NCBI GenBank assembly: GCA_017435365.1
Contig: JAFSFD010000044.1
Location: 1-33,126 of the forward strand
DNA from: Akkermansia sp.
GTDB taxonomy: Bacteria; Verrucomicrobiota; Verrucomicrobiia; Verrucomicrobiales; Akkermansiaceae
Direction: 5' to 3'
Length of the DNA: 33,126 nucleotides
A program made the position numbers and the translations under genes. Under the pieces are notes generated by a model. That model did not search any database, was not told the origin of the DNA, and worked only from the letters and a program-made list of their open reading frames with translations. This document shows positions 2,699 through 13,505 of the stretch, in pieces (the first letter of the stretch is position 1; every line of letters begins with the position of its first letter).

Positions 2699-2743
2699 AA
2701 CTACATATTGTGGTTTCGGGGGGGGTAACAACTATATATTGTG
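2699..2743. promoter_or_regulatory. Direct repeat aactaYatattgtg flanking a G8 tract
   Basis: The 14-mer aactacatattgtg (2699-2712) recurs as aactatatattgtg (2730-2743), 31 bases apart, about three helical turns. The G8 run at 2718-2725 lies between the copies. The block sits 44 bases upstream of the -35 box of the giant surface-protein gene, so it may be an operator. The role is inferred only from position and repetition. Confidence 0.4.
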
Positions 2744-2786: not shown

Positions 2787-2814
2787 TTGAAAAATGGAGG
2801 GATAGTGGTAGAAT
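2787..2814 (+). promoter_or_regulatory. Promoter of the giant PEP-CTERM gene
   Basis: TTGAAA at 2787-2792 and TAGAAT at 2809-2814 are separated by 16 bases. The ATG at 2859 leaves a leader of about 37 bases, without an obvious Shine-Dalgarno sequence. Confidence 0.6.
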
Positions 2815-2858: not shown

Positions 2859-4178
2859 ATGTTCAGCTCTGATTCTGTTCATCTTCAGTTCGATGTCACG
2901 AAACCATCACCGCACCGTGGATGGGTGAAGTACTTTGTGGCGGCCCTGGGTCTTGGAATGGGCACTGTGCAGGCTCAGGAGCAGAAGCTGCTGGATTACT
3001 GGTGGGTGATGCCACGCGAAGAGGTGCAGAACGCGCCCCGTGTCATCCGGGTCATCGGTGCCAAGGGTGAGAAGTTTGAGGAAGTATACGCCGAGGAGCA
3101 GGCCGCTGCCCTGCGTGGGAGTGCCGCCATCATGCAGGCCCGGCTGGAGCGCCAGGCTGCGCTGCGGCTGGAGGCGCAGCAGCGCGCGCGAGAGCTGCGC
3201 GAGGCCGGCAAGTCCCCCGCCGTGGCGTATGAGGAAGCCTGGGCAGAGGTCTACAGCCGCCGCTGGCTGAATGCAGACTGGCGCGTGGGCAGCAGCAAGC
3301 TGGAGGACATGCTTGCCCGCATGGCTTCCGATAATGAGGATTTTGCGCTCACGGAGGAAGAGCAGCAGTGGGTGCTGGAAGCCCTGCTGGAGGATGATGA
3401 CCGCCTGGAAAGCTCCGAGGGTATAGAGCTGCTGCGCAATCTGGCCCGCCGCCTGCGTGGCATGGGCTATGGCCGCGTGTATTCCCCCCATGCGATGCAG
3501 GACGAACTCATGGAGCGTTTTGCGGAGGCCATGCGCCATGGCAAGGAAAGCATGGCCGCCTATCGCGATGCACTTTTCAAGACCAACCGGGATCGCATCA
3601 TGCACCACGAGCTTCGCGGTTACCTGGCTCCCTGGGGTATGGGTGCGGGCGGCACGCGCAGCTACCGCCAGGCTCCCGTGGTGCTTACCCCCTCTGCCGG
3701 CACCGGCAGCACGCAGCAGCCGCAGCTGCCCGGGCTTACTGCACTAACAGTTGGGCAGTCCTACACCGCCCCCGGGTTGAATGCTGTGCCGGGCGCGCAG
3801 AGCAATTTCCTGGCCACTGCCCCTGATGCGGAGGATGACGAAAAGGAGGAGGAAGAGGAGAAGGAAAAGGACGAGGAAGAGCTGCTTACAGCCCCCTCGG
3901 CCCCGGCTGCACCTGCCGCCCCGGCACCCCGCATGATGATGGCGCGCAGCATGTCCCTGCGCTCCACCGGCGCGGAGACCCTGGCGGAGGAAATAGTGGC
4001 AGATTACATTGTGGGTGCCGGAAAAAACACATCCTTCCACACCACGACCACAGTCAACGGTCAGACCCTGACACGGGGCAATATCCACAATGCTGCATGG
4101 AATGCCGAAGACTTTTATAGTTATACCAATTCCACCCGTTTGGGGAGTGCCACGGCCACTGTCTATTTTGGAGCCTAG
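2859..4178 (+). CDS. Giant surface protein, N-terminal part (ends at in-frame TAG)
   Basis: 439 residues up to an amber codon. Seen: an N-terminal extension, then a signal peptide (KYFVAALGLGMGTVQA, cleavage likely before QEQ near residue 40). A long charged, probably helical and coiled-coil region follows (about 70-260, rich in Arg, Glu, Ala and Leu), then a Ser/Thr/Pro/Gly linker. Next come a Glu/Lys/Asp cluster (about 324-345), an Ala-Pro stretch and the start of a beta-rich region (TTTTVNGQTLTRGN). The downstream ORF is in the same frame and continues the beta-rich region without a break in style, so this is best read as the head of one 3,548-residue protein. If the TAG really stops translation, a secreted helical protein without anchor is made. 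I do not recognise the helical part. Confidence 0.75.
   Translation: MFSSDSVHLQFDVTKPSPHRGWVKYFVAALGLGMGTVQAQEQKLLDYWWVMPREEVQNAPRVIRVIGAKGEKFEEVYAEEQAAALRGSAAIMQARLERQAALRLEAQQRARELREAGKSPAVAYEEAWAEVYSRRWLNADWRVGSSKLEDMLARMASDNEDFALTEEEQQWVLEALLEDDDRLESSEGIELLRNLARRLRGMGYGRVYSPHAMQDELMERFAEAMRHGKESMAAYRDALFKTNRDRIMHHELRGYLAPWGMGAGGTRSYRQAPVVLTPSAGTGSTQQPQLPGLTALTVGQSYTAPGLNAVPGAQSNFLATAPDAEDDEKEEEEEKEKDEEELLTAPSAPAAPAAPAPRMMMARSMSLRSTGAETLAEEIVADYIVGAGKNTSFHTTTTVNGQTLTRGNIHNAAWNAEDFYSYTNSTRLGSATATVYFGA
4176..4178 (+). other. In-frame amber codon splitting the giant gene
   Basis: Codon 440 counted from the ATG at 2859 is TAG. Reading on in the same frame gives NTADGGEKIASTPGSF, then LYLGTGFSGNI, which aligns with the LYLG...HFGGNIEV opening of the second internal module. 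No further stop occurs for 3,100 codons. One base change (TGG, CAG, GAG or AAG to TAG) would explain it. A sequencing error, a recent nonsense mutation and readthrough are all possible. Confidence 0.9.
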
Positions 4179-4244
4179 AATACGGCGGATGGTGGGGAGA
4201 AGATAGCCAGCACTCCCGGATCATTCGGCCTGACTGGCGGGAAC

Positions 4245-5930
4245 TTGTACCTGGGCACGGGATTCTCCGGCAATATAGTGGTCAGCGGCGAAGGCAACGT
4301 CCTGCATGCTGAAAGCCTGGAGCATAAATCGGCGTCTGCAAATGGTGGCTTGTTTGGCTTGGTTTCTGCTACGGCGCATGCCGTGTACCAGGTGCCGGGT
4401 AGCGGTGAGTTCCGCTATGGTACCCTCTCCGGCAGCGGTGAGCTGACCCTTTCTAACAATGCCGCAGCTAATAATGCGGTCATCTATATTTTTAATGATG
4501 CAGCAGCCGATGGCTGGTTTGATGGCACCATCCGCTTCGGTGCATCCCGCGGCGGTATTGTGGAACTCGATTTAGGGGCCGATTCTGACTCCAGCACAGC
4601 CTGGAGCCAGACCGTGTTCGATATGAGCGGTATCGGCCAGGCCACTGACGGCTATGGTATCTCAACCAGCGAGGCTCCGACCAGAACCATCCTGAATGTA
4701 CGTGGTAATGTTTCCATCGCCGGTCTGGAGAACGGTGATGCCAACAGCACCGTGACCTCCGAATCCGGCGACTTCTTCTATGACCTCACGCTGGGCGACG
4801 TGGCAGGGGCAGATTATGTCTACAACGGCACCTTCAACGGCGCCTACTACACCTCCGCTACTCAGTCCAACGGTTCCAGCACTCCTTCCTCTCTGGACCT
4901 TTTCAAGGTAGGAGCCAATCAGCAGACAATTACCACCAATGTATCTAATAATGCGAACCGTCTGCACTCTGTTTCCGTGCAGGAGGGTACCCTGCGCTTT
5001 GATGATGCCGGGTACTACGACAACATCTACGGACGGTCTCTTGAAACGGCTTTTGTGACCGTCAGCGGCGGGCGCCTCCTGGTCAACGACCTCATCGTAA
5101 CCGGCGTGAAGGAAAATGAAGCCGAGTTCCTGGTGACTGGTGGCAAGGTGGAGGCCAATGGCGATATCACCGTTGCCTATGACATGGGAGTCATGGGCGG
5201 GGGCTCTGTTTCTGCGGTCAATGTGAGCGCCGGTAACAACCTGGGCGTTTCCGGCTCCGGCAGTTCCCTGACCATCACCGGCAGCCTGGAGACGCTCGCC
5301 ATGCGTGTGGAGAAAGGGGGACATCTCGAGGCAGTTGATATCACTGTGCAGTCCAACCTGGAGGTGGGTACGGAATCCGCCCAGGTGGCAAATATCACTG
5401 ATGACCAGCGTGCCACCCTCATCAGCTCCGGCAGCCTGACCGCCGGTGAACTCCGCCTGCGTGGCGATGGTCTGCTGCAGACGGGGGACTCCGCCATCAC
5501 CCTGACCGGGGCGCACATGCACGGCGGCGCAGTGTGGAAGATGGAGGGCGGGCAGAACACCCTCAACGGCCTGCTGCGCCTGGAAAATGTCGGTGGGGCC
5601 GATGGACAGGTAACCTTCAGCGGCACCGCGGTGGAAGGAGCAGAACACGCCGTGCTCACCCTGCCGGGGATGGTCTCTCTGGCCGATGCCAACTGGGACG
5701 GTGGCAGGAATGCGCTTTTCCACCTGGATAACGTGCAGCTGGATTTCCGCCTGGGCGTGACTCTGACCAACACCGGCATCCCGCTGGCGGAGGGTACCGT
5801 GCTGACCCTGGCCAGCACGGCGAATGGAGGCGGTTATGTAGAGGACTCCACCACCTGGGTGCGTGTGGAGAGTTCCGACGCTCTCTACCACGGTGTACTG
5901 GGGTACGATGCGCAGCAGAATGTCATCATC
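4245..5930 (+). repeat. Module I of the giant protein
   Basis: Motif order: LYLG...FSGNI; GWFDGTIRF..GGIVELDLG (about 4510-4576); ILNVRGNVSIAG; LTLGDVAGADYVYNG; LDLFKVGANQQTI...VSVQEGTLRF (about 4893-5005); then LQTGDSAITL and LNGLLRLENVGG. Boundaries are approximate. Confidence 0.65.
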
Positions 5931-8900
5931 ACCATTCAGCACGAGCTGATTATTCCGCAGAAAATGGCCTCCGGTGATTTGCTCTATATTGAGATGTATC
6001 AGGATGCGCACGACCCGGCTCTGCCATATAAGGCGCATGATACATACTCCGGTGGCAGCTGGAGCGGCACCCCGGAGAATGTCGAGTCTCTCATCCGCTT
6101 TTCTAACCTGCAGATGAGCGAGGGTGCCGATTTGTACCTGGGTGAGGACCAGAAGACCGGCAACGAGGGAACAGAGGTGGTTGACTATCGTGCCGACCGC
6201 CACTTCGGCGGTAATATTGAGGTTATAGTGACCTCCACCGCCGATGATGCCGCGCAGCTTCACGGTGAAATCGGCGATTGGGGGAACTGGTATCTGGATG
6301 GACACCTGGGCGGCAGCGGGGCTCTGAAACTGGTGGCTCATAATACGCTAGGAACGCGGGATCTTAATCCGTCTACAGTCACGGAGAGTGATACCACCAC
6401 CTCGAAAACGTATGAGTATGGCACCGCCAGTACCTTTACATTCACGGATTATGCTACCCCGGAGGCATGGTTCTCCGGCACGCTCAGCCTGGCAGACCCG
6501 CATGGCGGTATTGTGCAGCTCAATATCGGCAACGTGAATATTGCGGATGCCGGTGATACCCGCTGGAAAAATACGCTCATTGATCTCACGCTTGATTCAA
6601 TGACCGACAAGGCTTCCGAAACGAGTGGAACAGCGACGGAGCAGGTACTGGGGCTGGTGGGCGATGCCCAGGTAGCCGGTATCAGGGGGGGGGACGGCGC
6701 CTTCATTGTCTCCAACGTGAAAGCCGGCAGCGGCAAGCCTTCTCCGGTGCTCACCATCGGTTCGGACATGGCCGATTACACCTTCTCCGGCACTGTGGGC
6801 GATGGCCGTTTCTACACCGGTGGTCAGGCTACCGGCAAGACCACCACCACGACTACCACCACGACCACGGCCAACAGTGGCACGGTGACCACCACCACGA
6901 CTTCCACCGTGGAAACCAATTTCCAGACCATGGAAAACGGGGCTCTCAGCCTCACCAAGGTGGGCAGCAACACCCAGACCTTCAGCGGGAGTGTGTACCT
7001 GGACCAGGTGCTGGTGAAGGAAGGAAAGCTGGCTCTTAAGGGCGGGACGATTGATATTGGAAGCATGGAGGTGCATAGCGGCGCTTACCTCCAGACAGCT
7101 TCCGGCGCTGTGATGGATTCCCTCACCCTCCACGGTGATTCCACCTGGGAAATGATGGGTTATACGAACCGTTACCTTTCCCCGCTGTATCTCACGAATA
7201 TGTCCGGGGGCGGAGCCAATATCACCTCCACCGACCCGCTGACCTGGAGCCCCTCCCGCTATATGAGCCTGAGTGGCGCGAATCTTACGCTCCTCGGGGA
7301 AAATACCCTCACCGCCGGTGGAGAAGCTATATTCGAGATTGGTTCCGGAATCACCCTGGACCTGAGTAATCCCCATGTGCTTACCAATGTAAGCGGCGCC
7401 GCTCCGAATAGGTGGATAGCCTTGTTCGGCAAGGTCTCGCGGGAATATGAATCCCTGCCCACGGATATGATTCTGGTCGAGGATGAAATGGGGAATTTCT
7501 ACGATGCGGCCTATATGCTGATTGGTGAAACCATTTACCTGCAACTGGGCGAGGCCCGCGACTATGGCATCGTGGCGAATGAGCATGCGGAACCGCATAC
7601 CTCGAAAATCGGCTATATATGGAGTGGTGAGGATAACGGCACGACTGATGGTGATGTGCACCACATCAACCTGACCATGGGCAGCATCTGGCGGGCGGAT
7701 GGCTCCGCGGAGAATACCGGCTGGCATGAGCAGCGCGCCGCAGGTTCCTCCAATGATGATATCGGCAAGTATGTGGATGGCAACACCGTCTGGTTCCTGG
7801 ATAAAGATGTGCATGGCTTCGATGAAGTGCACCGCATGGTGGATATCGTGGGGAATGTGGCTCCGGGTGAAATCATCATTGAGTCAAATCTTAATGCCGG
7901 TTTTGTGGATCCGAAACCCGAGGATGCCGAGTACCACATGGAGTATTCCTATGCCTTCGTGAGCAAGGATGGTACCGGCTGCATCACGGATTATGTGGAT
8001 GCCGAGGGCGAGGTAACCCCTACCTCCATCACCATGAAGGGGACCGGGCTGGTGGTGCTCAACCTCACCAATAATTTCTCCGGCGGTATTGATGTGCAGA
8101 ATGGTGGCATTTATGTGGCCACGGTGGGTGCCGCCGGTACCGGTGCTCTTACCTTCCACACCGACCAGGAGTGGAGCTTCAAGGTGCAGGGGCTGAGCAA
8201 CGGAGTAGTCGATACTCCCATGGAACGCCTGGGCTCTGAGCTCATGATCTGCTACCAGCACAGTGACGACGCCGTGTCCGGCTTCCGCGGTTCCTCCCTG
8301 CGCAACGATATCATCCTCTCCAGTACAAAGACGACGGCTGAAAATGATTTTGAGGGCCGATTCAAGGTTTCCTTCGCCTATGCCGCCTTCAATGAATCCG
8401 GCGGTGGCGACAGTATTTCCAACATCCCCCGCCACTGGCGCAACCTGACCCTCTCCGGTGCCCTGGTCGGCACCGGGTATGAGGCGACAGATGCGCAAGG
8501 TAACAAAATCTGGGTGAATACCAGCGCCAATGATACGCTGGAACTCACGGGCTATTGCTCCACCTGGGCCAATGAACGAGACCAGAGCTATACCACGGCC
8601 ATCACCCTGAACGAGGATACAGTAGGGGAGGGGAGCTATATATACGATGGAGACACCGGGAAGATTCTCAACCGTTTCCAGGGTAAGGTGGTGCTGATGA
8701 ATACGGTGAATACCTCTCCTTTGCCGTCCAATAAGTTGGAGAAACGTACGGCCGGTTCCGTGCAGCTGGTGCTCAAAGGTGAAAAATTGTCGCAGGCTCA
8801 TCTGGACATGACGCGTGAAAGCGTGAAGATGGGCTGGGATGAAGAGAATGACAAGGCAACCGCTTACGAAGAGTCCGACCACCAGAAACTCCCCCGTCAG

Positions 8901-11900
8901 ACCTACAATAATATCCTGATGGTGAATGGAGATGCCACCTTGAAAGGCCTTTCTGCCAAGTTCCATGGCTGCGGCTGGGATTATCCGGAGGATAATTCTT
9001 CAGGTAATGATAATCGCATTGGTGACCGCAAATTCATTGCGGACATGAAGCAGCATGATGAGGTGTGGCATGTGCGTACGCTGACCAATGGCCTGAATAC
9101 GCTCAGACTGGGTGAGGTCGGTGATTCGGCAAACAATTCCACCTACATCTACTCGGGTGCCATGGGCTTTGCCCAGGCATACATCGGCACCTCGCAGGCC
9201 CACGTGCCCTGGGGCGATGGCTTCATGGAGCATACCGCTTCGTGGTATTTCGGTGGCCACAGCGTGGCGCAGGAAAGCCTGAGCCTGGTCAAGGCCAGTG
9301 CCTCTTCCCAATATATTCACACGGCCGTGCTGGATGATGTTTCGGTTTATGAAGGCACGCTTGGTTTCAATAATCTGAATCTGAAAGGTAATCTGAACCT
9401 GGTGGGCGGCACCACTACCAAGCTTGGAGTGACGACCGAGGCCGGGTGGGATTTCATCTCCGAGGATGCAGTATCCGACATGCAGACAAACTACAAAGTG
9501 GTGCCTACCAGCGAGGATGTGACACTGAATCCTGGTAAGACCCTGACGGTGTTCACGCCGAACACTGGTGCCGGCACGGAGCCCACCTCTGCTGTTGTGG
9601 ATGGCAATGTCATCATGAAAGAAGGAACGGCCCTTACCTTCCTGCCGAATGGTATGGTGCCGGATTATACCTATGATGATGAAAGTGCAGCTGCGGGGGT
9701 GCGCCCGGTAAACCCGCTGCTGGATGTGAACGGCACGCTGCAATTCCTGGATGCTTCCCCCGCGCAACTTTCCATCAACCTGACCGGCGTGAATTTCTCC
9801 CAAGTGCCGGTTGAAACTCGCGAGAATACCTATTTCTACCTGGCTGAGGCCGAAAATATCGTGATTGGTGAGGCTGAGGATTCTTCAAAGTTTCAGAGTC
9901 GCATCATGTCGCTGGGGTATGGCTATTTCGGCGTGCTCGACACGCTGGATAGCTCCGGCGGTGAACATGCGAGCACGGATGGCAAGGATTACCTGGTCAT
10001 CCGCGTGTATGGCGACCCCCGCTGCACCTGGTCCGGTAAGACAGAAGTGGCCGGTAATGAGATAGGCAACGTCTGGGTCCACTCTCCGGATGATTCGCTG
10101 CCGGAATATGATTACCGGTGGAAGGAAAATTCCGCTTTCCAGGATGGCATGACGGTTCTCTTCGGTAATCTGTATGAGCCGTTTGACTGGTCGGAAGTGT
10201 CGAAGCTCACGAGCATAGAGACACCGGTAGTGAAACTTGGTGCCTTGCAGGCTGGTCACCCGGCTACCGAGGTGACAGTGGATGGTCACAAGATTAGCTG
10301 GACCGCAGGCATGGATGCTGACTATAAATACGAGAATGTGGTTATCCAGGGGCGAGTGGCGCCACTCTCTGTGGTCATCAATTCTGATTATTTCGATTCC
10401 TATGATACCGGCCGTGTGGCGTACCCAGACACCACGAACTATATTTTCACGATATCCGGAGAAGATGAGAGCTATGGCTATATCGCCGACTCCACGGAGG
10501 ATGAACTCAAGGTGTGGAAAGAGAGTTACAAGGTAGAAAACCTGGACTGGAAGACGAATCTGACCAAGTTGGGCAAGGGGACTGCCATCATGACCACGGA
10601 TAACCGCTTCACCGGTGGTACTGAGATTCTCGGAGGCCGCATCGTGATGCAGCATGTGAATGCCCTTGGCTTTGTGTACAACAACGGTGCGTATGCAACC
10701 CCGGATGATGCGACCGATGACAAGACCAACCTGGATGATCAATTCAAGGACAAGCTTTTGACAGGTCTGGACTGTACCATCACCCTGATGAATGGCGGCG
10801 AACTGATGGCGGATTTCTCGGATGACGCTTTCCCGGGTAATCATCAGGAAAATATCACCACTTCCATGGGGGCTGCCCTGGATACCACAACTATCCGCAA
10901 CAAGGTGGTGGTGAATGTTTACGCAAACCCCGATGACCCTGATTATGATACTCTGGTGGACGGACGTATTTTCAACAACACGGCGCACAAGCTGGTGCTG
11001 AGCACGCTGGTCGGTGAGTCCGACACGGTGGTGGAATTTGCCGGTGTGGGGCTTACGGCCGACCAGTCGAGCAATGCATACGGTGTGGATAACAAGTTCC
11101 GTTACGGCGTGTTCAAAGTGCTGGACCCCAGCGGCTTCTCCGGCACGGTGACACTTACCGGCAAACACTGGGAGCTGTCCGAAGACGGCAAGACTGCAGA
11201 CCTGGTGAATGGCGGTAATGTGCAGCTCAACCTCATGAGCCACACCAAATCCGAAGGCAAGGACTGGACGAATGCCACTGTGGACCTGAGTATCAAGGAT
11301 GGCACCGACCGCACGGTGCTGGGCCTGGATGCCACAGGTCAGGCCACTGACGTCCCGGGCTATGAATGTGTGTACCTCAACAGTATTCACGGCCAGGTGA
11401 AGAGTGGTTCCTCCAGTGTGCTCAACATGAGCGCGCACAATGAGCTCACCCTCATCCTGACCGGTACCCGCAGCGGTGCCTATGAAGGCGTGATGGGCTA
11501 TGGCGATTTTGAAGTCTCCGTGGACTACGGTGGCTACGCCGGCCTGCATGGAACGACTCAGCACCACTACGGGGCTATCGGGTTCGGCTCGCTTAATCTT
11601 ATCAAAGAGGGCGAGGGCAGCACCCAGTCTGCCCGCCGGGCCTGGCTGAACAGCGTGACGGTGCAGGGCGGCACCTTCAAGGCCGATGAGGCGCTGGTGG
11701 CCCGCACCCTCACTACCGGCGGCGGTAAGCGCGTGATGGTGGGTGATGTGGATCAATCCACCCTGTATGCCTTGTCCGTGGGCAAGGGCGGCACGCTCGC
11801 CATGAATACCACCTTCAACGTGTCCGGTACCAAGGAGGATGCCTGGGAAGGCGTGGAGGCTGGCACCACGGTGGGTGATTCGACCAGGCCCGCCGGCTGG

Positions 11901-13505
11901 GTGCTGCTGGAGGATGGCGCCACCCTTTCCGCCCGTGAGGACTGGTACACCCGCAAACAGGTGGATATGGCTCCCGGGGCTCATGTGACCATCAATACGC
12001 GTAACTTCATTGTGGACCCGTATCTGACGGTGCAGCATGATGCTCAAGTGAAGAATGAGGTGGTCAATAAGTACGAATATTCCCACATCATCCAGCTGCT
12101 GGGGCAGTTCAGCGGCAGCAATGTTCATCTCACGTTCAATAACCTCCTGACGGATGCCAATAACAAGGACTCCTACATGGACCTGAAGGGAGACTCCCCG
12201 AACATGGGGTATGTGGCGCTCAATGACCTGAACGCCCTGAAGGGCTCCAGCACTGTCTATGTGGACAGCATGACGGCTCTGCAGCTCCTGAATGCCAACG
12301 GCGGGGTGAAGGCGGATGTGGATATCATTGTGGCCGGAAAGAATGCCACGCTCCAGATTCTGGACCAAGTGACGAATTATGACAGCAGCCACATGTCATC
12401 CTCCTCGGATTCCATGGTGCAGTATATTGACCGTATCCGCTTTGGTGCGAATGTAGATATAAACCCGAATGAGGATCCGCTGCACCGTGAGAATACCGGC
12501 CAGCTGCTGCTGGGTGGTGTGGAGCAGAGATCCCTGGCAGTTGGTGATTCCCGCTTGAATACTCCTAATACGGCTGATCGGCAGGTGATTATTTCTTCCC
12601 GCCACAACACCACCGACTGGGAGTATGTGGTTTCCCGCCTGGAGGGGAAGGAACTCGACTTGAATGATGATAAAGGTGTCAAGCTGCAGGGCGAAGTGAC
12701 CAACCTCAATATTGATATGCGCGGGTCTGCGGTCAAGCTTGGTGGCGATGCCGCCACGCGCTCTGAGATGAACAGCGTGCATGTGGACCTGGCCAATTCC
12801 GATATTTCGCATACCATTTACCAGACCAACCTGCGCAATTCCCTGGTGCACCTCATGGAGGACTGCTCGGTGAACATTGCGGATATGGTGCTGGTGAATG
12901 ACCAATCCGTCATCCGTGGTGTGAAGCTTGAGTACGTGAAAGCCGGTGATGCCTACACCCTGGTGGGCAACACGGTGAACCCCTACGATGCCGCCCCCAA
13001 CGTGGCAGCGGGCAACAACCCCACCAGCAAGACCAAGGAGGTTTCCACCTCGGTGAACACCACGGTGGAGCTCACCTTTGCCGATAAGACTGAGGTTTGC
13101 ACCTCGGCCAATGGCACGCGTCTGCTTGTGCTGCAGGCCGACCAGCTGCTGGGGGTGGATGTAACCGGCAATGGCCTGACGCTCCGGCTGCATGAGAACA
13201 TGTTCCAATATGCTTATGATGCCGATGCCCGCTTTGTCGGCGTGATGATGGGCGGTGACTCCGGCCAGTTCCTGTATGAGGCCGACAATACGAAATTCGG
13301 CAGCCTGCTGGATTCCCAGTTCGTGCTGCAGGATTCCACCGGCCAGCAACTCACCGGCCACTGGGTGACCAGTACCTATGTGGGCACCGAGTCCGGGGAA
13401 AGCGTGTCGCGATACATGCTCTACTTCGAAGTGCCGGAGCCGGCCACCACCACCCTCAGCCTGCTGGCGCTCACCGCCCTCTGCGCCCGCCGCCGCAGGA
13501 AATAA
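4245..13505 (+). CDS. Giant modular beta-helix surface protein with PEP-CTERM anchor (main part)
   Basis: An open frame of 3,086 codons from a TTG at 4245. It is probably not an independent gene: the TTG has no ribosome site and there is no signal peptide, while the frame is continuous with the segment that starts at 2859. The protein is Gly/Thr/Ser/Asn/Asp-rich, few-cysteine and beta-strand-like. Four large modules repeat the same order of motifs, and two stretches match the autotransporter-associated beta-strand pattern (8042-8150 and 10558-10670, e.g. NRFTGGTEILGGRIVM). The C terminus is a clear PEP-CTERM signal: VPEPA, a hydrophobic stretch, then RRRRK. Such signals are processed by an exosortase, not encoded here, so the product is expected at the cell surface. 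A likely role is adhesion or surface coating (inference). It also carries a G9 tract and a poly-Thr stretch. Confidence 0.85.
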   Translation: MYLGTGFSGNIVVSGEGNVLHAESLEHKSASANGGLFGLVSATAHAVYQVPGSGEFRYGTLSGSGELTLSNNAAANNAVIYIFNDAAADGWFDGTIRFGASRGGIVELDLGADSDSSTAWSQTVFDMSGIGQATDGYGISTSEAPTRTILNVRGNVSIAGLENGDANSTVTSESGDFFYDLTLGDVAGADYVYNGTFNGAYYTSATQSNGSSTPSSLDLFKVGANQQTITTNVSNNANRLHSVSVQEGTLRFDDAGYYDNIYGRSLETAFVTVSGGRLLVNDLIVTGVKENEAEFLVTGGKVEANGDITVAYDMGVMGGGSVSAVNVSAGNNLGVSGSGSSLTITGSLETLAMRVEKGGHLEAVDITVQSNLEVGTESAQVANITDDQRATLISSGSLTAGELRLRGDGLLQTGDSAITLTGAHMHGGAVWKMEGGQNTLNGLLRLENVGGADGQVTFSGTAVEGAEHAVLTLPGMVSLADANWDGGRNALFHLDNVQLDFRLGVTLTNTGIPLAEGTVLTLASTANGGGYVEDSTTWVRVESSDALYHGVLGYDAQQNVIITIQHELIIPQKMASGDLLYIEMYQDAHDPALPYKAHDTYSGGSWSGTPENVESLIRFSNLQMSEGADLYLGEDQKTGNEGTEVVDYRADRHFGGNIEVIVTSTADDAAQLHGEIGDWGNWYLDGHLGGSGALKLVAHNTLGTRDLNPSTVTESDTTTSKTYEYGTASTFTFTDYATPEAWFSGTLSLADPHGGIVQLNIGNVNIADAGDTRWKNTLIDLTLDSMTDKASETSGTATEQVLGLVGDAQVAGIRGGDGAFIVSNVKAGSGKPSPVLTIGSDMADYTFSGTVGDGRFYTGGQATGKTTTTTTTTTTANSGTVTTTTTSTVETNFQTMENGALSLTKVGSNTQTFSGSVYLDQVLVKEGKLALKGGTIDIGSMEVHSGAYLQTASGAVMDSLTLHGDSTWEMMGYTNRYLSPLYLTNMSGGGANITSTDPLTWSPSRYMSLSGANLTLLGENTLTAGGEAIFEIGSGITLDLSNPHVLTNVSGAAPNRWIALFGKVSREYESLPTDMILVEDEMGNFYDAAYMLIGETIYLQLGEARDYGIVANEHAEPHTSKIGYIWSGEDNGTTDGDVHHINLTMGSIWRADGSAENTGWHEQRAAGSSNDDIGKYVDGNTVWFLDKDVHGFDEVHRMVDIVGNVAPGEIIIESNLNAGFVDPKPEDAEYHMEYSYAFVSKDGTGCITDYVDAEGEVTPTSITMKGTGLVVLNLTNNFSGGIDVQNGGIYVATVGAAGTGALTFHTDQEWSFKVQGLSNGVVDTPMERLGSELMICYQHSDDAVSGFRGSSLRNDIILSSTKTTAENDFEGRFKVSFAYAAFNESGGGDSISNIPRHWRNLTLSGALVGTGYEATDAQGNKIWVNTSANDTLELTGYCSTWANERDQSYTTAITLNEDTVGEGSYIYDGDTGKILNRFQGKVVLMNTVNTSPLPSNKLEKRTAGSVQLVLKGEKLSQAHLDMTRESVKMGWDEENDKATAYEESDHQKLPRQTYNNILMVNGDATLKGLSAKFHGCGWDYPEDNSSGNDNRIGDRKFIADMKQHDEVWHVRTLTNGLNTLRLGEVGDSANNSTYIYSGAMGFAQAYIGTSQAHVPWGDGFMEHTASWYFGGHSVAQESLSLVKASASSQYIHTAVLDDVSVYEGTLGFNNLNLKGNLNLVGGTTTKLGVTTEAGWDFISEDAVSDMQTNYKVVPTSEDVTLNPGKTLTVFTPNTGAGTEPTSAVVDGNVIMKEGTALTFLPNGMVPDYTYDDESAAAGVRPVNPLLDVNGTLQFLDASPAQLSINLTGVNFSQVPVETRENTYFYLAEAENIVIGEAEDSSKFQSRIMSLGYGYFGVLDTLDSSGGEHASTDGKDYLVIRVYGDPRCTWSGKTEVAGNEIGNVWVHSPDDSLPEYDYRWKENSAFQDGMTVLFGNLYEPFDWSEVSKLTSIETPVVKLGALQAGHPATEVTVDGHKISWTAGMDADYKYENVVIQGRVAPLSVVINSDYFDSYDTGRVAYPDTTNYIFTISGEDESYGYIADSTEDELKVWKESYKVENLDWKTNLTKLGKGTAIMTTDNRFTGGTEILGGRIVMQHVNALGFVYNNGAYATPDDATDDKTNLDDQFKDKLLTGLDCTITLMNGGELMADFSDDAFPGNHQENITTSMGAALDTTTIRNKVVVNVYANPDDPDYDTLVDGRIFNNTAHKLVLSTLVGESDTVVEFAGVGLTADQSSNAYGVDNKFRYGVFKVLDPSGFSGTVTLTGKHWELSEDGKTADLVNGGNVQLNLMSHTKSEGKDWTNATVDLSIKDGTDRTVLGLDATGQATDVPGYECVYLNSIHGQVKSGSSSVLNMSAHNELTLILTGTRSGAYEGVMGYGDFEVSVDYGGYAGLHGTTQHHYGAIGFGSLNLIKEGEGSTQSARRAWLNSVTVQGGTFKADEALVARTLTTGGGKRVMVGDVDQSTLYALSVGKGGTLAMNTTFNVSGTKEDAWEGVEAGTTVGDSTRPAGWVLLEDGATLSAREDWYTRKQVDMAPGAHVTINTRNFIVDPYLTVQHDAQVKNEVVNKYEYSHIIQLLGQFSGSNVHLTFNNLLTDANNKDSYMDLKGDSPNMGYVALNDLNALKGSSTVYVDSMTALQLLNANGGVKADVDIIVAGKNATLQILDQVTNYDSSHMSSSSDSMVQYIDRIRFGANVDINPNEDPLHRENTGQLLLGGVEQRSLAVGDSRLNTPNTADRQVIISSRHNTTDWEYVVSRLEGKELDLNDDKGVKLQGEVTNLNIDMRGSAVKLGGDAATRSEMNSVHVDLANSDISHTIYQTNLRNSLVHLMEDCSVNIADMVLVNDQSVIRGVKLEYVKAGDAYTLVGNTVNPYDAAPNVAAGNNPTSKTKEVSTSVNTTVELTFADKTEVCTSANGTRLLVLQADQLLGVDVTGNGLTLRLHENMFQYAYDADARFVGVMMGGDSGQFLYEADNTKFGSLLDSQFVLQDSTGQQLTGHWVTSTYVGTESGESVSRYMLYFEVPEPATTTLSLLALTALCARRRRK
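6685..6693 (+). repeat. G9 homopolymer inside the coding region
   Basis: Nine consecutive Gs encode Arg-Gly-Gly in module II. The frame is intact here, since GIRGGDGAF aligns with GLENGDANS of module I. Poly-G tracts of this length are classic slippage sites. Confidence 0.85.
6836..6912 (+). repeat. Poly-threonine tract
   Basis: ACC/ACG/ACT codons encode a run of ten Thr, a short interruption, then five more Thr. It lies just before the KVG element of module II, where module I has a Ser/Thr-rich stretch. It may be a flexible linker or O-glycosylation region, and triplet-repeat slippage would change its length without shifting the frame. Confidence 0.75.
7605..9720 (+). repeat. Module III of the giant protein
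   Basis: It opens with a YIWSGEDNG head. The autotransporter-type strand GTGLVVLNLTNNFSGGIDV follows, then ILMVNGDATLKG, LRLGEVGDSANNSTYIYSG and LSLVKASASSQYI...VSVYEGTLGF (about 9272-9360). It is more divergent than I and II; boundaries are approximate. Confidence 0.55.
10020..11960 (+). repeat. Module IV of the giant protein
   Basis: It opens with a CTWSGKTEVAG head like module III. The autotransporter-type strand at 10558-10670 follows, then FSGTVTL..GGNVQLNL (about 11133-11240), TVLGLDATGQ, LTLILTGTRSGAYEG and LNLIKEGEGSTQS...VTVQGGTFKA (about 11590-11680). Boundaries are approximate. Confidence 0.55.
13432..13502 (+). other. PEP-CTERM sorting signal
   Basis: The last 24 or so residues contain VPEPA, a roughly 15-residue hydrophobic segment (TTLSLLALTALCA) and a terminal RRRRK. 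This three-part pattern defines PEP-CTERM exosortase substrates. No exosortase gene is in the window. Confidence 0.92.

Follow-up and report, generated by a model that had tools for sequence, protein, structure and literature searches.

Structure of the interrupted gene

The locus described here raises the question of why a gene for a giant predicted surface protein of Akkermansia sp. is divided by a single in-frame TAG, and what this means for its product. The window, which is the entire contig C57 at its full length of 33,126 nucleotides, belongs to a metagenome-type assembly (2.5 Mb, 78 contigs, 97% complete). Positions 2859-13505 form a single frame of 3,549 codons with one interruption, the TAG at 4176-4178 (codon 440). 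The 22 open codons at 4179-4244 join the ORFs on either side, and the downstream frame thus comprises 3,108 codons. The TAG is probably a recent loss-of-function nonsense allele of a gene for a giant predicted PEP-CTERM-anchored surface protein, a reading that follows from the tryptophan found at this site in relatives and from the lack of decay behind the stop. The features of the locus are listed below.

2718..2725, + strand: G8 tract within GGGGGGGGTAA, upstream of the promoter
2787..2814, + strand: predicted promoter of the sigma-70 type, TTGAAA-16-TAGAAT, the second hexamer being preceded by TG
2859..4178, + strand: 5' ORF, 439 aa, stop TAG; signal peptide, conserved N-terminal domain, acidic linker and first passenger residues
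3831..3881, + strand: GAG/GAA repeat encoding the acidic linker; length differs in P0001 and P0014
4176..4178, + strand: in-frame TAG, codon 440; tryptophan in relatives
4179..13505, + strand: open frame behind the stop, encoding the beta-strand-repeat passenger; 3,108 codons and a terminal TAA
4245-13505, + strand: listed downstream ORF, 3,086 aa, TTG start (ORF list)
6685..6693, + strand: G9 tract within the coding frame, in frame as it stands
10560..10643, + strand: best PATR match, residues 2128-2155 of the downstream frame
13431..13499, + strand: PEP-CTERM sorting motif (PF07589), residues 3085-3107 of the downstream frame

The 5' part begins with a signal peptide with a long n-region (...WVKYFVAALGLGMGTVQAQ|EQK, about residues 1-40, judged by eye), and its N-terminal domain, at about residues 40-290, gave no Pfam, NCBIfam or PDB match at the thresholds used. 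The passenger is a beta-strand repeat, with TIGR02601 above its cut-off and the overlapping PF12951 (PATR) below the Pfam cut-off. The last 23 residues constitute the PEP-CTERM motif; the PF07589 score of 20.1 bits lies just under the cut-off of 20.7, and PEPATTTLSLLALTALCARRRRK is plain at the C-terminus, with the PEP motif, a hydrophobic stretch and a basic cluster. In the window allele the stop separates signal peptide and anchor, which lie on one polypeptide in the orthologues. One exosortase match (PF09721, 151.8 bits) is present elsewhere in the genome, at C22. The giant gene lies between ordinary neighbours, with an inorganic pyrophosphatase gene on its upstream side and a DEAD-box helicase gene on its downstream side.

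The initial annotation had described two ORFs in one frame around a single TAG at codon 440, with 22 open codons between them, a signal peptide in the first, a PEP-CTERM anchor in the second and more than 3,000 open codons behind the stop. The frame scan confirmed the shared frame, the joining codons and the open frame of 3,108 codons; the signal peptide was recognized by eye, and the anchor by PF07589 together with the plain motif.

Codon 440 in related genes

The nearest relatives of the window sequence in the search belong to the same genus. Orthologues from two other species, in genomes G011 and G005, have tryptophan at the aligned site and are open across it, in single frames of 3,543 and 3,529 codons, respectively; continuity of the frame across the stop point is therefore not due to chance. 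Identity to the window is 74% for the G011 orthologue, and for the G005 orthologue 60% over the N-terminal part and 48% over the next 774 residues. A closer relative, L074 (SUVL01000013.1, Akkermansiaceae SIG71), has a tryptophan codon at the site in its DNA and is 98-100% identical to the window in 100-column blocks from 4043 to about 4440. The database protein P0014 (3,546 aa) is full length, 98% identical to the downstream frame and likewise has tryptophan, as do P0015, P0016, P0018, P0019 and P0021; among the more distant of the 30 database proteins, the alignment near codon 440 is too loose to name one residue. The alignment to orthologues that the initial annotation had proposed for this codon thus gives tryptophan. 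Close relatives carry a sense codon where the window carries a stop, as is characteristic of a nonsense allele, and intact alleles exist close by. Relative to the L074 DNA, the lesion is a substitution and not an indel in a simple repeat.

That the locus comprises two separate genes, one for a secreted N-terminal protein and one for a downstream protein starting at TTG 4245, is highly implausible. Two ORFs do appear in the ORF list, and an annotation would list two unrelated proteins, hiding the giant surface protein. The orthologues, however, read as one frame, and their continuity across the site led us to reject a separate gene from TTG 4245; moreover, no signal peptide is seen by eye where the downstream ORF begins, yet this ORF ends in a PEP-CTERM motif.

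Amber hotspots in lacI arise by deamination of Dcm-like 5-methylcytosine in a CCWGG-type context. The codon-440 site lies in such a context, and the same process would yield the same change. A methylated-cytosine hotspot was nevertheless rejected: the gene has 217 other transitions that would create a stop, 24 of them in this context, and a genome search for cytosine-5 methyltransferases (PF00145) found none.

Authenticity of the stop

There is a slim chance that the TAG arose through faulty sequencing or assembly, or through a consensus drawn over a mixture of strains, given that the assembly is of the metagenome type, in 78 contigs, and that a single base is involved. Against this, the RNA polymerase genes of this genome are unbroken, and the database protein P0001, a separate record found on six contigs, ends at the same residue. 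P0001 matches the 5' product of the window except in the acidic repeat, where it has one substitution and four extra residues, and its longest contig measures 32,808 bases (33,126 for the window). This record represents another assembly; its sources are unlisted and it may derive from the same sample, so that it is no proof of another strain. The same end combined with a different length of the acidic repeat makes an assembly error unlikely, and the TAG at codon 440 is probably not an artefact.

State and age of the frame behind the stop

No further inactivating lesion was detected in the 3,108 codons of the downstream frame of the window copy. Private substitutions, polarized with P0015, P0016 and P0018 as outgroups, number 13 in the window and 10 in P0014 behind the stop, and 0 and 1, respectively, before it. 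The dN/dS ratio between the window and the G011 orthologue is 0.21 before the stop and 0.223 after it (dS near 0.9). With the G005 orthologue the values are 0.213 and 0.327, which is not the clean equality before and after the stop found with G011. We read the higher value as reflecting faster evolution of the passenger rather than decay in the window, since the G011-G005 pair, both open at the site, itself gives 0.294 over the whole gene.

The downstream frame offers 779 one-step routes to a stop codon, none of which has been taken. Under neutrality this limits the age of the TAG to no more than about 1.2-1.4% divergence (95%, kappa 1 to 4), a bound that is invalid if the frame behind the stop is still translated. 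The open frame thus indicates that the TAG is young or that the frame behind it is still used, and with more than 3,000 codons remaining open the stop is likely to be recent. The initial annotation had allowed for three cases: a stop of very recent origin, an error, and a stop tolerated through readthrough. Recency gains support from the substitution counts and dN/dS; error is disfavoured by the shared end of P0001, and recoding by the tRNAs and release factor described below.

Recoding and readthrough

The tRNA model identified 43 places in the genome, for all of which ARAGORN gave an anticodon, and none of the 43 reads UAG, UAA or UGA. Ile, Cys and Ala-TGC tRNAs were not found in the assembly, and the tRNA set is therefore incomplete. 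Release factor RF1 is present and open over its whole length. Neither a suppressor tRNA nor loss of RF1 was found, and a recoded genome was rejected on these grounds.

It is also conceivable, if quite unlikely, that the UAG is tolerated through partial readthrough by a near-cognate tRNA or an unseen suppressor, so that the short product predominates and small amounts of the full-length anchored protein are made. Such a reading would accommodate the clean downstream frame, with constraint unchanged against G011, and the gaps in the tRNA set. At least two other stops in the family also precede open frames of thousands of codons (codon 8 in G011 and, as deduced from protein records, P0008/P0057; see below), and in Escherichia coli TAG readthrough is described as occurring, less often than that of TGA (PMC11126739). 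Set against it are the lack of a UAG-reading tRNA among the 43, the intact RF1, the tryptophan codon kept in relatives and the nine of 13 complete family loci that have no interruption.

Recurrent interruption in the gene family

A profile of the N-terminal part retrieved 19 loci in 10 of the 76 genomes of the genus at the sensitivity used. Six loci cut by contig ends (G101:C49, G012:C204, G012:C206, G027:C250, G010:C126 and G010:C130) were left out. Nine of the 13 contig-complete loci are intact into the PEP-CTERM tail; the tails of G043:C86 and G036:C72 were read separately and that of G036:C60 by eye, as the regular expression missed all three. The other four are interrupted: the window, C48 of the same genome, the G011 orthologue and G043:C30, with G043:C30 and G021:C184 assessed beyond their start regions.

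Besides the window gene, the search found one family member in this genome, the locus on C48 (L040); that it too is broken lies outside the initial annotation, as do the poly-G tracts described below. A one-base frameshift at about 11821-11837 puts its last ~117 residues, including the PEP-CTERM anchor, out of frame. Its 3,038-residue frame occurs at 100% identity on four database contigs, the longest of 96,205 bases (57,584 here). The G011 orthologue has a TAG at codon 8 (L075, 3695-3697), where database relatives have glutamine or histidine; its database copy is annotated from a later start, after this TAG, which still leaves the hydrophobic core of the signal peptide in the product. In G043:C30 (L149), a frameshift relative to G021:C184 lies at about 6731-6767, with the PEP-CTERM motif in another frame ~436 codons on.

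Database proteins suggest a further case. P0008 (341 aa) and P0057 (2,818 aa) abut across one glutamine of their homologue P0059, as seen at the protein level, an arrangement that implies one more in-frame stop behind the acidic linker. P0008 occurs on nine contigs and P0057 on seven, the longest being of 15,562 bases for both. An intact anchor is the rule among long family proteins: 111 of the 117 with at least 1,700 residues from three database searches end in a PEP-CTERM motif; in two of these searches the length range did not reach down to shorter truncations. As an error control, the same ten genomes contain five full rpoB and four full rpoC genes with no internal stops, the others being partial or absent; this control is far smaller than the 13 family loci, and assembly error may account for the frameshifted ones.

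Consequences of the stop and possible causes of loss

In the window allele, translation would end at residue 439, leaving the signal peptide, the conserved N-terminal domain and the acidic linker. This short piece could be exported, without the ~3,100-residue passenger and the anchor, and the surface protein would be off. The initial annotation had foreseen a switch-off or the release of a short secreted form, an expectation in keeping with the layout of the gene. The mechanism of a single stop is ordinary; the interesting part is the recurrent interruption. As C48 is also broken and two more interrupted family loci occur in other genomes, the protein may be lost repeatedly under some local condition (phage, immunity or cost) and kept intact elsewhere. 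From this pattern we infer selection for loss of the giant surface protein.

Drift could produce the same picture if the gene is dispensable in this lineage and stands at the very start of decay, with no selection for loss; we judge this somewhat unlikely. In this genome each of the two family members found is broken, and only 10 of the 76 genus genomes have the family at the profile sensitivity used, as drift would allow. Each copy, however, has one lesion with no other damage seen, P0014 is intact at 98% identity, and the window shows no excess of private substitutions, although such single lesions, an intact P0014 and substitution counts separate drift from selection poorly when the stop is young. 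Doubtful, taken as a whole, is a two-level contingency system in which transcription is tuned or switched by promoter poly-G tracts, and in which early stops that recur and revert (at codons 8, 342 and 440 in three members) yield a short secreted N-terminal domain in place of an anchored protein of about 3,100-3,550 residues. If this were true, the secreted domain may have a function of its own, and a population could drop its surface coat when pressed by phages or immunity and later recover it.

The nonsense allele, which is probably real and recent, is ordinary in kind. The encoded protein resembles the PEP-CTERM/exosortase proteins described for Akkermansia (PF07589/TIGR02595; PMC4960237, PMC3048395) in its signal peptide, in the exosortase and in a C-terminal PEP motif with a hydrophobic stretch and arginines. 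Unlike the proteins covered there, it has ~3,550 residues and an N-terminal domain without a named family, and it is cut by a stop. No prior description of this giant gene was found in the portions of the Akkermansia, PEP-CTERM and phase-variation literature consulted.

In gut commensals, premature stops are regarded as local adaptations that can revert, and few loci allow this to be traced. In gut Bacteroides fragilis, 28 premature stops are given among 325 nonsynonymous new mutations, more than expected (PMC11379459). The window resembles the locally adaptive, reversible stops described in that source in that a surface gene of a gut-type commensal is cut early while the rest of its frame stays intact, and in that uninterrupted alleles occur nearby; it differs in that its stop is known from sequence comparison rather than from a time series, and selection and reversion are hypothetical for it. 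Pertactin-deficient Bordetella pertussis, as far as described in the sources consulted, is similar in that a surface autotransporter is repeatedly lost through varied inactivating mutations, and dissimilar in that the loss is vaccine-driven, in a pathogen, and concerns a different protein and anchor. The present locus is a surface gene of great size with a stop whose age is bounded; it comes with a close intact allele, a broken second member in the same genome and slippage-prone tracts, and could be tracked in existing metagenome reads of a much-studied genus.

Promoter region and poly-G tracts

A sigma-70-type core similar to that of the window lies 50-75 bases before the start in all 10 upstream regions of the family examined (mean 0.2 of 10 and maximum 2 in shuffles), although the promoter expression was chosen after these sequences had been viewed, which favours the observed count. 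Runs of at least six G or C occur within 200 bases upstream in 6 of 10 family regions and 44 of 782 tiles of the same DNA, and runs of at least eight in 4 of 10 regions and 7 of 782 tiles; the tiles contain the family's own runs, and the upstream regions are partly homologous and thus not independent. With a longer upstream stretch, such a run is present in 8 of the 14 loci placed by script, 5 of the 19 loci being unplaced. G8 tracts precede both family members of this genome (2718-2725 in the window and 9640-9647 in G000:C48), and other family genes are preceded by runs of 6 to 11 G or C, in some cases with the C residues on the coding strand.

These upstream G8 tracts are a candidate for promoter phase variation. 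G runs of at least eight are not rare in the genome, with 64 overlapping matches in 42 distinct runs. In Akkermansia muciniphila, the G9 tract of Amuc_1413 is reported to be variable, a frameshift abolishing mucin binding (PMC13055324), and the first genome paper drew attention to long homopolymers (PMC3048395). The window resembles Amuc_1413, as described in the former source, in having G8-G9 tracts in and upstream of a likely surface-shaping gene of the same genus. It differs in that its lesion is a substitution rather than a change of tract length; the codon-440 stop is thus not a case of phase variation by slippage, although G tracts lie nearby.

The coding G9 tract at 6685-6693 is a possible slippage site; no G or C run of at least seven was found in the frames of G011, G005, G012:C207 and G036:C89. 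The sequence GGGGGGGTAA has two exact matches in the genome, both upstream of family members. Its over-representation was rejected, given three matches to the reversed pattern and a one-mismatch count in the window no higher than chance; what is notable is the placement of the two matches, not their number. Three ATATATTGTG-like boxes surround the poly-G tract at 2703-2755 of the window and may be regulator sites; allowing up to one mismatch, the window holds four such matches, compared with 0.89 expected.
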